Program-made: the position numbers and the translations under genes
From: Campylobacterota bacterium
GTDB lineage: Bacteria > Campylobacterota > Campylobacteria > Campylobacterales > Nitratiruptoraceae
Assembly: GCA_009659895.1 (NCBI GenBank)
Contig: PUXX01000089.1
Location: 1 to 37,691, forward strand
DNA length: 37,691 bases
Direction: 5' to 3'
Shown: positions 18,788 to 21,903 of the stretch, one piece after another
Layout of the letters: every line of letters starts with the position of its first letter
How positions within the stretch are numbered: the first letter of the stretch is position 1
The notes under the pieces: generated by a model
The model's input: only the letters and a program-made list of their open reading frames with translations
The model's database searches: none
What the model was told of the DNA's origin: nothing

Positions 18788-19162
<375 letters not shown>

Positions 19163-20446
19163 TTATTTGAGATTGAATCCTCTCTCACCATGGACCGCTT
19201 CGTCAAGTCCCATGACCTCAGTCTCCTCATCCACTCTTCCACCACCTGTAAGGAGGCTGGAGATAAAGTAGACAATTGCGGTCACGACACCGGTAAAAAC
19301 CATAGTCACCACCACAGATTCTAGCTGCACTAGCATCTGAGCCATACGATCGCCGTGATCTTTGAGGGGGCTTCCATCCCATGCAAGCTCTTGGAGGGCG
19401 AAAAGTCCCGTCGCCAGTGCTCCCCAAAGCCCCGCTAGGAAGTGGACACCAAAGGCATCGAGGCTATCGTCATATTTGAAGACCTTTTTGAGCCACGCTA
19501 CACCCCAAAATCCAACTACACTTCCGCCGATTCCGATGATGAGAGCTCCTAGCACATCCACAAATCCAGCTGCTGGAGTGATGGCGACCAGGCCAGCTAC
19601 CGCACCGGTCGCAGCGCCAAGGAGGGTCGGCTTTTTGTAGACGATCCATTCGATAATCACCCATGTAAGAGCACCAATTGCAGCTGCGAAGTTGGTCATA
19701 AGAAGCGCGCTTCCCGCTACGCCATCTGCGGCAAATTCGCTTCCTGCGTTGAATCCAAACCAGCCAAACCAAAGGATAGCTGCTCCAAGAGCCGTGAGGA
19801 TGACGCTAGAAGGATGCATCGCCTCTTTTGGATAGCCACGGCGTTTGCCAAGCATGAGGGCAAGTACCAGCCCGGCCAGACCGCCGTTCATATGGACGAC
19901 CGTACCACCAGCAAAATCCAAAGCCCCGTCGTTGTACAAAAATCCACCTCCCCAGACCATATGGGTGATGGGCACATAGACAAAAGTGACCCAAAGCACA
20001 CTAAAGATCACCCATGTGGAGAACTTCATCCGCTCGATCACCGAACCACTGGCGATTGCTAGGGTAATAGCTGCGAAAGTGCCCTGGAAAGCGATGAAAA
20101 CAAACTCTGGATAGGTCCCGCTGAGACTGTCGACGGTGACCCCTTTTAAGAAGATCTTGCTAAGATCTCCGATGATCGCTCCATCTCCGTTGAAGGCTAG
20201 GGAGTATCCCCACATCACCCAGACAATTGAGCCAATGACATAGGCGATGAAGACCATCATATAGGTATTGAGGATATTTTTGGCTCTGGTCATCCCCCCA
20301 TAAAAGAGCGCCAGTCCAGCTGGTGTCATGAGCATGACGAAGGCCGTAGCCACGATCATCCATGCCGTGTCTCCGCTATTGAGCTTATCTTTTGCGAATG
20401 CGAATGTAGGCAAAAGCGCCGCCATCGCGACCATCCACTTTTTCAT
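19163..20446 (-). CDS. amt: Ammonium transporter (Amt/MEP/Rh family)
   Basis: The 427-residue membrane channel takes up ammonium. MKKWMVAMAALLPTFAFAKDK is a signal peptide, as in AmtB, followed by 11 hydrophobic segments. ALFYGGMTRAKN is the start of the family signature. The pore histidines are in VVHMNGGLAGL and FGVHFLAGLWGAL. ATG 20446 has AAGGAG 7 bases upstream; the open frame extends further to 20698, but that part runs through the divergent regulator and is not Amt-like. Control is probably through the inverted repeat at 20466-20501 and, for activity, through PII. Confidence 0.96.
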   Translation of the reverse strand: MKKWMVAMAALLPTFAFAKDKLNSGDTAWMIVATAFVMLMTPAGLALFYGGMTRAKNILNTYMMVFIAYVIGSIVWVMWGYSLAFNGDGAIIGDLSKIFLKGVTVDSLSGTYPEFVFIAFQGTFAAITLAIASGSVIERMKFSTWVIFSVLWVTFVYVPITHMVWGGGFLYNDGALDFAGGTVVHMNGGLAGLVLALMLGKRRGYPKEAMHPSSVILTALGAAILWFGWFGFNAGSEFAADGVAGSALLMTNFAAAIGALTWVIIEWIVYKKPTLLGAATGAVAGLVAITPAAGFVDVLGALIIGIGGSVVGFWGVAWLKKVFKYDDSLDAFGVHFLAGLWGALATGLFALQELAWDGSPLKDHGDRMAQMLVQLESVVVTMVFTGVVTAIVYFISSLLTGGGRVDEETEVMGLDEAVHGERGFNLK

Positions 20447-20465: not shown

Positions 20466-20501
20466 TTTTGACGAAAAAATTGTATCGAAGCGGCGTCAAA
20501 A
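20466..20501. promoter_or_regulatory. Inverted repeat between amt and the divergent NtrC-like gene
   Basis: TTTTGACG (20466-20473) and CGTCAAAA (20494-20501) are perfect 8-bp arms 28 bp apart centre to centre, close to three helical turns. They lie between the two divergent starts. That is the arrangement of an operator for a dimeric DNA-binding protein; the NtrC-like protein next to it is an obvious candidate. Binding is inferred. Confidence 0.5.
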
Positions 20502-20507
20502 ATATTG

Positions 20508-20513
20508 TATAAT
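20508..20513 (+). promoter_or_regulatory. -10 box for the NtrC-like gene
   Basis: TATAAT lies 21 bases before the ATG at 20535 with AAAGGAG between. Its position just downstream of the inverted repeat at 20466-20501 would let a bound regulator affect it. No -35 box is clear. Confidence 0.55.
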
Positions 20514-20534
20514 TTTTGCACAAAAGGAGTGGAG

Positions 20535-21248
20535 ATGGAGAGCTTTATCGCAAAATCCCCCCAAAGTATCAAAGTGCTCAATGTCTTGCGAGTGAGCGCT
20601 ACACTGCCTGTGAATATTCTCATCGAAGGGGAACGGGGTACGGGCAAGGAGACGCTAGTCAATACAGTCTTCAAAAACATTCCAAAATTTAGCGTCAAGG
20701 ATCTAGAAGAGCACAGACCTCAAGATAAGGAGATCTTTATCAGAGATTTTGAGAACGTCTCTGACGTGATGAGTTTCATGGGCCGTTTCAAGGAGTATCG
20801 CATCATCGCAGCCTCTACAAAGAGCAAGGAACTGTATGAGGACTATTTTCCTGTGCGTATATTCATCCCTCCCCTCTCTCAAAGGCCAGAAGATCTTGAA
20901 GAGCTCAAAAGGATCTATATCCAAAAGGCGATGCGAGAGTTTGAGCTAGAGAAGATGCCTGAGCAGTTTGATCTAGATCTGAGTGCCAACGCCATCTCCT
21001 TGAAGCGATCCATCTATGAGCGGGCTCTTTTAGAGAAGCTTGATGAGGGACGATTCATGAGGCTTTGTGAAGAGTTCTTCGCCAGTCGGCTTGAGAGGGG
21101 GTATAGGGAGTTGCTGAGCTTTTTTGAGATCCCTTTGCTCCGAGCTGCCAAAAAGCGCTACAAGAGCGCTTTGGCTATCTCAAAAGTCCTGGGACTCAAT
21201 CGGGCCACTCTCACCTCAAAGCTGAAAAAATATCAATCTAAGTTATAA
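20535..21248 (+). CDS. Shrunken NtrC/bEBP-like protein, no GAFTGA loop, Fis-type DNA-binding domain
   Basis: The 237-residue protein aligns by eye with the AAA+ part of sigma-54 activators. A Walker A-like GERGTGKE (about 34-41), a weak Walker B-like EIFIRDFEN, RIIAASTKSKEL matching the RIIAATN strand, and PLSQRPEDLEEL matching PLRERxEDI are visible. About 40 residues between Walker A and B, where GAFTGA should be, are missing. The end (ALAISKVLGLNRATLTSKLKKY) is a good Fis-type helix-turn-helix. It is therefore probably not a normal sigma-54 activator; it may be a repressor or act on sigma-70. It is divergent from amt-glnB. AAAGGAGTGGAG precedes ATG 20535. Confidence 0.75.
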   Translation: MESFIAKSPQSIKVLNVLRVSATLPVNILIEGERGTGKETLVNTVFKNIPKFSVKDLEEHRPQDKEIFIRDFENVSDVMSFMGRFKEYRIIAASTKSKELYEDYFPVRIFIPPLSQRPEDLEELKRIYIQKAMREFELEKMPEQFDLDLSANAISLKRSIYERALLEKLDEGRFMRLCEEFFASRLERGYRELLSFFEIPLLRAAKKRYKSALAISKVLGLNRATLTSKLKKYQSKL

Positions 21249-21903
21249 AGGGTAGCTCTATGTGGATTGTATCTTTTTCGATGGAGATGATAAAGTCGTC
21301 ATCTTTGATGTTTTGTATGGATGGGATCTGAGGGGACTTGATGTCGATATTGATGACCGGATAGCGTTTGTTATCGATCTTGATGCTACATCCTGTGGCG
21401 ATAGCGACACGGATATAGATGGAGGGGCTGTTCTTTAGGGCTTTGAAGATCTTATTGAGAAGCTGGAGAAAATTGTTGATATTGAGTTTGAACTCAGGGA
21501 TAGAGACATCATATTCCGCTTCGATTGGTGTGGAAGGGTCTAGATTGGTGTTGATGGCGATGTCAAGTAGCGTGAAGATGTTGGCAAACTGAAGATCTTC
21601 GTTGATCGCTTTATATTTTTTGCTACAGACGTTTTTGTGGAGCATGATACCTATGGTGTCGCTGTTGATATACCCAACACTGATGGCACAAAAGCTCGAG
21701 TGACCTATATCGATATCCAAAAAGGAGTGTTTGAAGCCAAAACTCATGGATGCGTGAGAGACGGCGAGGTTGTAGAGCTCGTCCTTGTCGATGACAGAGA
21801 GGATATATTCCCCTTCGTCGTTGTACTGCAAGACATGGCCTTCTGCGTCGAAGACGACAAAGGGATTGATATTGTTGTCGATAAAGGCTTTGTAGAGATC
21901 CAT
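21238..21903 (-). CDS. PAS-like protein with degenerate kinase-like C-terminus
   Basis: I know no named family for this 221-residue protein. The N-terminus (NNINPFVVFDAEGHVLQYNDEGEYILS) reads as a PAS domain start, as in NtrB-type sensors. The C-terminal part (NNFLQLLNKIFKALKNS, a strand with YIRVAIATG, then DDDFIISIEKDTIHIELP) has the layout of a histidine-kinase ATPase domain. It lacks the phospho-histidine box, the N-box asparagine and the glycine boxes. It is probably a sensor without kinase activity. It converges on the NtrC-like gene with an 11-bp overlap and is downstream of the gene at 21917-22384. Confidence 0.6.
   Translation of the reverse strand: MDLYKAFIDNNINPFVVFDAEGHVLQYNDEGEYILSVIDKDELYNLAVSHASMSFGFKHSFLDIDIGHSSFCAISVGYINSDTIGIMLHKNVCSKKYKAINEDLQFANIFTLLDIAINTNLDPSTPIEAEYDVSIPEFKLNINNFLQLLNKIFKALKNSPSIYIRVAIATGCSIKIDNKRYPVINIDIKSPQIPSIQNIKDDDFIISIEKDTIHIELPFIT

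Follow-up and report, generated by a model that had tools for sequence, protein, structure and literature searches.

Two neighbouring genes of a Campylobacterota bacterium, here designated A and B, are likely to be descendants of the nitrogen regulators NtrC and NtrB that dispense with sigma-54 and with phosphorylation and run nitrogen assimilation in much of the Campylobacterota, and it is with the same degree of confidence that the full mechanism presented below is proposed. Regulation of nitrogen genes by A is strongly supported, without binding, expression or interaction data, whereas the action of B and of the PII protein, including the binding of B to PII or to A, is inferred. A candidate regulator is now named, together with its operator, the geometry of its promoters and its predicted targets, all of which can be tested directly. 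The pair shows a route from a sigma-54, phosphorylation-driven regulator to a contact-driven sigma-70 activator, with retention of the target genes and of an NtrC-like operator geometry. The pair also lends itself naturally to the question of which components of NtrBC are indispensable.

Organization of the locus

The window, by which the whole 37,691-nucleotide stretch of analysed DNA is meant, contains A at positions 20535–21248 of the forward strand and B at positions 21238–21903 of the reverse strand. The two genes are convergent and their tails overlap by 11 bp. Divergently from A, at a distance of 88 bp, lies amt (19163–20446, reverse strand), which encodes an ammonium transporter (PF00909, E = 3e-118). 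It is adjoined at its end by glnB (18788–19126, reverse strand), which encodes a PII protein (PF00543, E = 6e-36). Both amt and glnB are predicted targets, and PII is the likely signal input. No glnA was found in the assembly from which the window originates, which is 86% complete.

Gene A encodes a shortened NtrC-type protein

From its ATG, A encodes 237 amino acids comprising the remnant of a P-loop AAA+ domain and a Fis-type helix-turn-helix. Two Pfam models match the protein, Sigma54_activat (E = 4e-5), confined to the N-terminal 46 residues, and HTH_50 (E = 6e-7), at the very end. The NCBIfam model of NtrC (TIGR01818) matches with E = 1e-9, the score of 37.6 bits missing the model cut-off of 558.6. 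When the 49-member A family was compared with E. coli NtrC using hhalign, a probability of 98.7% was obtained (E = 3e-16). The alignment starts at NtrC residue 136, A beginning at the AAA+ domain; by this comparison, the receiver domain with its phosphorylatable aspartate is missing. NtrC residues 215–220, around the GAFTGA motif, face a gap. Profile matches in the PDB include NtrC1, FleQ, ZraR and Fis. The AlphaFold model (pLDDT 95) is matched by Foldseek to NtrC-family AAA+ domains with TM-scores of only about 0.55–0.6, because a large part of the domain is missing.

The extent of the loss was measured between landmarks of the AAA+ domain. A reading of the sequence alone (the sequence-only reading) had noted a Walker A-like motif and a Fis-type helix in A, and the loss of about 40 residues including GAFTGA. 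The two motifs are confirmed, and the loss is close to the estimate: 50 residues are gone, Walker A and sensor I lying 57 residues apart in A as against 107 in E. coli NtrC. A further 11 residues are gone where NtrC has FREDLFHRL, the arginine-finger segment. Walker A is kept throughout the family, with G32 and G37 in 49 of 49 members and K38 in 48. The Walker B glutamate is never present, the position being occupied by F, I, L or Y in 49/49. In the helix-turn-helix, N222, R223 and T225 are likewise conserved in all 49 proteins. That A consists of an NtrC-type AAA+ core with a Fis-type helix-turn-helix, and is of NtrC descent, is clear. Judged from its residues, A may still bind a nucleotide, since Walker A is intact, and should neither hydrolyse it nor remodel a sigma-54 promoter.

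Gene B encodes a PAS protein with a predicted NtrB-like fold

The relationship of B (221 amino acids) to NtrB is weak by sequence and clear by structure, as far as a predicted model allows. No Pfam model matches B. NCBIfam gives weak hints at best, among them NtrB NR(II) with E = 0.11. The profile search has ZraS and NtrB among its hits, and the direct comparison with NtrB by hhalign gave a probability of just 12%. In that alignment, the segments EYDVSIPEF and IDNKRYPV of B face DYDPSLPEL and LHGERYRL of NtrB, with near-equal spacing (46 residues in B vs 49 in NtrB). The AlphaFold model of B (pLDDT 91) superimposes onto the catalytic domain of NtrB (1r62) with a target TM-score of 0.60 (E = 7e-6), and B shares this catalytic fold with NtrB as well as the stretch just described. 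Other structural matches are PAS-containing histidine kinases, and NifL-NifA (9qq6) is among the matches.

The PAS-like start and the kinase-like ATPase layout without histidine or glycine boxes, which had been read from the letters alone, are borne out by the structural matches and by the alignment columns. B is about 90 residues shorter than NtrB ahead of the DYDPSLPE stretch, the dimerisation and phospho-acceptor helices with the H box being missing, and the alignment of the B family has no column of conserved histidine. After the YRL stretch, 45 residues remain in B vs 77 in NtrB. The G1 and G2 boxes are missing, with neither DxGxG nor GxGxG. It is inferred from these missing residues, without activity data, that B is not a kinase.

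A 19-bp dyad lies upstream of nitrogen genes

Comparison of the amt|A intergenic regions within the genus revealed a palindrome, TTGTATAATTTTTATACAA, over the -10 element of A. In relatives in which amt has moved next to B, the palindrome travels with amt. When the search was extended over the genus, the palindrome recurred ahead of the second glnB-amt operon, ahead of narK and ahead of glnA, where it is perfect, for instance in G003; the identities of these genes were confirmed. It is a 19-bp dyad of the Fis/NtrC type with a constant core, GNNYAAWWWTTRNNC, and variable half-sites (TTGATTAA, TTGCTTAA, TTGTATAA, TTGCTCAA). Further dyads precede narK and nirA in other families. The window has a single site scoring at least 11 bits, TTGTATAATTTTTGCACAA at positions 20505–20523, in the amt|A promoter region.

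The NtrC consensus is TGCAC-N7-GTGCA, with a TG-N13-CA spacing, and the TGNNN-N7-NNNCA geometry of the dyad equals it. A site of the CRP/FNR type was ruled out: the half-sites of an FNR box are 4 bp apart, unlike TTGAT and ATCAA of the dyad, which are 9 bp apart. The core GNNYAAWWWTTRNNC also fits the rule for Fis sites, which calls for 15 bp of AT-rich core flanked by G and C, with a pyrimidine-purine step at ±3–4 (PMC4784862). Covariation between the recognition helix (R-N-T vs R-A-T) and the letters of the half-sites was considered (P = 1e-5 overall; P = 0.3 outside the genus, with 5 genomes) and dropped as evidence, being confounded by ancestry.

Some matches lie elsewhere. A perfect TTGATTAATATTTAATCAA occurs at G003:C1:1138732-1138750 within a stretch of repetitive open frames where no nitrogen gene is evident. 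In genome G008, TGGTATAATTTTTATAAAG is repeated at least 9 times over several contigs and probably belongs to a mobile element rather than being the operator.

The enrichment of the dyad was evaluated against control regions, which were cleaned, as the upstream regions of A and of other divergent genes share the tested sites. With a weight matrix built only from the amt sites of the genus, the regions ahead of glnA (n = 14, P = 3e-8) and of narK (n = 9, P = 4e-7) score well above the controls within the genus. With a matrix built from all sites of the genus, glnA sites are found in the other A/B-bearing families (n = 34, P = 2e-20 vs 637 controls), at -80 to -93 in most of these genomes. Where A/B are lacking, in 8 genomes, the same matrix detects no enrichment of glnA sites (P = 0.14). 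Control of both glnA and amt-glnB through a 17-bp dyad of the NtrC type is supported at the level of site statistics, without binding data. The role in nitrogen control, which the sequence-only reading had tentatively inferred beside amt-glnB, is supported by the occurrence of the dyad ahead of glnA, amt, glnB-amt2, narK and nirA.

Other features were noticed around narK. The second glnB-amt2 operon (L211:5645-7216, G000:C72) is divergent from narK, with dyads in between. On the same contig, a gene encoding a fusion of a PP2C phosphatase with a Ser/Thr kinase (L211:2563-4182, G000:C72) lies between narK and genes of a DmsB/DmsC-like reductase. N-termini resembling this fusion come after narK in other families (L351, L353, L358).

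The dyad is phased with sigma-70 promoter elements

The distance from the end of the dyad to the -10 hexamer was determined for 86 nitrogen-gene sites. It is 20 bp in 31 of them and 30–31 bp in 47, with about 1 per spacing position expected from shuffled sequence; sites of related genomes and of shared divergent regions are not independent. These spacings place the centre of the dyad near -42 or -52, two positions that differ by one helical turn and that would suit an activator in contact with the sigma-70 polymerase. A composite of the dyad and a correctly spaced -10 is found upstream of glnA in 44/48 genomes with A/B and 0/8 without (Fisher test, 3e-7), as well as in 19 of 864 control regions. 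Since some of the control regions belong to loci that were fetched for carrying the motif, this comparison is conservative. No glnA composite was recognised in four A/B genomes (G007, G028, G052 and G059).

In the window, the predicted -10 of amt, TACAAT (20479–20484, reverse strand), lies exactly 20 bp from the dyad, while the predicted -10 of A, TATAAT (20508–20513, forward strand), lies within it. The positions are observed; the effect they suggest, namely activation of amt and self-repression of A, is inferred. This arrangement could also be taken to mean that A chiefly represses the nitrogen genes and lets go of them under nitrogen limitation, as the dyad covering the -10 of its own promoter in Nitratiruptor is in a repressor position. 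Such a general repressor role is improbable: the dyads of glnA, amt and narK, centred around -42 or -52 and so phased by one helical turn, occupy the usual site of a sigma-70 activator, and a repressor needs no such phase. Activation of the nitrogen genes by A, with repression restricted to its own promoter, is the reading retained.

A is maintained in genomes without sigma-54

None of the 22 genomes of the family of the window (f1, G000–G021) has sigma-54, and neither do families f6 and f12; A is kept in all of them. The suggestion that the regulator does not use sigma-54, made earlier from the letters alone, is supported by this absence from carriers together with the loss of GAFTGA and of ATPase residues and the placement of the site relative to a sigma-70 -10 element.

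In family f1, flagellin is found in 19 genomes and sigma-54 in 0/22, from which it follows that flagella are made there without RpoN.

A and B are inherited together

A and B are not chance frames, as homologues occur across the genus, with 43–69% identity for A and 44–71% for B, and more distant ones in more than 20 families. Among 60 Campylobacterales genomes, A is present in 52 and B in 51, the single exception being G020, a draft assembly with A alone. The same 8 genomes lack both genes, with losses in five families. Family f9 comprises genera that carry A/B as well as genera that do not. In a class-wide sample searched with alignment queries, A and B were found in the identical 30 of 111 genomes. 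Genomes are related, so that the counts of co-occurrence are not independent. Named records with B come from an uncultured Nitratiruptor, Sulfurimonas (including S. indica) and Sulfuricurvum. Canonical PII is present in 52/52 A-bearing genomes vs 3/8 of those without A, PII being absent or divergent in the other 5/8.

A and B, which are convergent in the genus of the window, lie side by side on the same strand in eight families (f6, f7, f8, f12, f13, f15, f16 and f18), in most cases with their ends overlapping. The gene amt or glnB adjoins the pair or is near it in six families. In genomes of the Sulfurimonas type, A and B are apart: A is flanked by slyD and fabD, B follows rpoD, and neither is beside amt. 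Neither outcome that the sequence-only reading had named as refuting it was obtained, namely a profile search without an NtrC or histidine-kinase relationship, or genes unlinked in every relative. A and B are linked in the majority of families, and they are inherited together also where they lie apart. A and B are an ancient, co-inherited pair that behaves as one unit.

The neighbours of B leave room for a different target. B adjoins rpoD in ten loci and is near flgG in several, with flagellin close by in two f13 genomes, and B might act on sigma-70 itself or on flagella, its link to A being indirect. The near-perfect co-occurrence with A and the tight same-strand pairing in eight families make this doubtful, and B is kept where flagellin is absent (G026, G032 and G045). 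Flagella were rejected as the main role of the pair, since A/B are present in these three genomes and missing from several that bear flagellin. A remains the preferred target of B.

Slightly less probable still is that the dyad is bound by another regulator, such as the orphan response regulator resembling HP1021/CemR, whose C-terminus is of the Fis type, with A/B merely co-inherited. Besides A, the family of the window has one clear Fis-type protein, this HP1021-like one, which is present in 53/60 genomes; it is missing from G028 and G052, which are among the four A/B genomes without a recognised glnA composite. It does not explain the dyad, since 7/8 genomes without A/B contain it and the glnA composite is missing from every one of them. 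The dyad is moreover found at the promoter of A itself in most genomes of the genus, which also speaks against the HP1021-like protein as the binder. The preferred binder is A. The HP1021/CemR-like gene (L369:1802-2704, G000:C8) and its homologues lie between ispDF-like and ATP-sulfurylase-like genes.

That A and B, which both lack catalytic motifs, are decaying, functionless remnants of NtrBC is hardly tenable given their intact frames, conserved columns (N222, R223, T225), confident folds, co-inheritance and matching operator; the frames are full-length and without internal stops in all matches of the 60-genome set, and with the strong conservation a pseudogene reading was rejected.

Proposed mechanism

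It is proposed that a dimer of A binds the 19-bp dyad through its Fis-type helix-turn-helix, a step that is strongly inferred. A would then activate the sigma-70 polymerase at glnA, amt, glnB-amt2, narK and nirA in a class II-like manner, standing in for the -35 contact at dyads centred at about -42 or -52; the sites and their spacing are observed, the activation is inferred. In Nitratiruptor, the dyad over the -10 of A would let A repress itself while activating the divergent amt, an effect inferred from position. Going by its residues, A would perhaps bind a nucleotide, without hydrolysis and without remodelling of a sigma-54 promoter. B, made of a PAS domain and a dead ATPase fold of the NtrB type, is presumed to switch A through direct contact. 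It would probably relay the state of PII to A in the manner of NifL and NifA. PII binds NtrB via its catalytic/ATPase domain. The step from PII to B is put forward because PII co-occurs with the pair, B keeps the domain with which NtrB meets PII, and NifL-NifA provides a precedent.

A more general hypothesis can be put forward, in which PII would control a dead NtrB (B), and B in turn, through contact, an NtrC with a dead ATPase (A) that activates sigma-70 promoters. The logic of NtrBC would be retained minus phosphorylation, ATP hydrolysis and sigma-54, and this chain would be the chief nitrogen regulator in the majority of free-living lineages of the Campylobacterota. In this generality, the proposal is as apt to fail as to hold.

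Comparison with known regulators

As in the NtrB-NtrC system of E. coli, the predicted targets of A/B are nitrogen genes, beside PII and amt, and A is related to NtrC over the AAA+ domain and the helix-turn-helix. Unlike NtrB-NtrC, A/B have no receiver domain, GAFTGA, Walker B glutamate or phospho-acceptor histidine, many carriers lack sigma-54, and the operator is at -42 or -52 of sigma-70 promoters.

The NtrC proteins of Rhodobacter capsulatus and Caulobacter lack GAFTGA, work at sigma-70 promoters and control glnA; they keep the receiver, the AAA+ domain and phosphorylation by a real NtrB kinase, and Caulobacter NtrC requires Walker A and B (PMC10274813). A resembles them in lacking GAFTGA, in being placed at sigma-70 promoters and in having glnA as a predicted target, and differs in that far more has been lost and that its partner is predicted not to be a kinase. 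An NtrC that lacks GAFTGA and acts on sigma-70 promoters is therefore already known, and the known ones keep a receiver and a working kinase partner, unlike A.

NifL controls NifA by contact, with an input from PII (GlnK). A/B fit the NifL type of arrangement, in which a kinase-like protein lacking phosphotransfer is paired with an NtrC-family protein, B being PAS-containing as NifL is. The two systems differ in that NifA acts on nif genes as a full sigma-54 activator, which A is not, and in that the sites of A are at general nitrogen-assimilation genes.

A literature search restricted to open access, with most subscription journals outside its scope, returned no description of the A/B pair or of its regulon. 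Within the same scope, it returned no nitrogen-assimilation regulator described for deep-sea vent or sulfur-oxidising Campylobacterota.

TyrR and HupR are AAA+ regulators without GAFTGA that act at sigma-70 promoters, with a full-size AAA+ domain and other signals sensed. VspR is a GAFTGA-less enhancer-binding protein of sigma-70 promoters (PMC10274813). A is proposed to act at sigma-70 promoters like these three AAA+ regulators, VspR too having a full-size AAA+ domain and sensing another signal, and differs from them in its shortened AAA+ domain. With Fis, A shares the type of helix-turn-helix and its dyad the 15-bp core rule, whereas Fis, which serves as a global nucleoid protein, lacks an AAA+ part.
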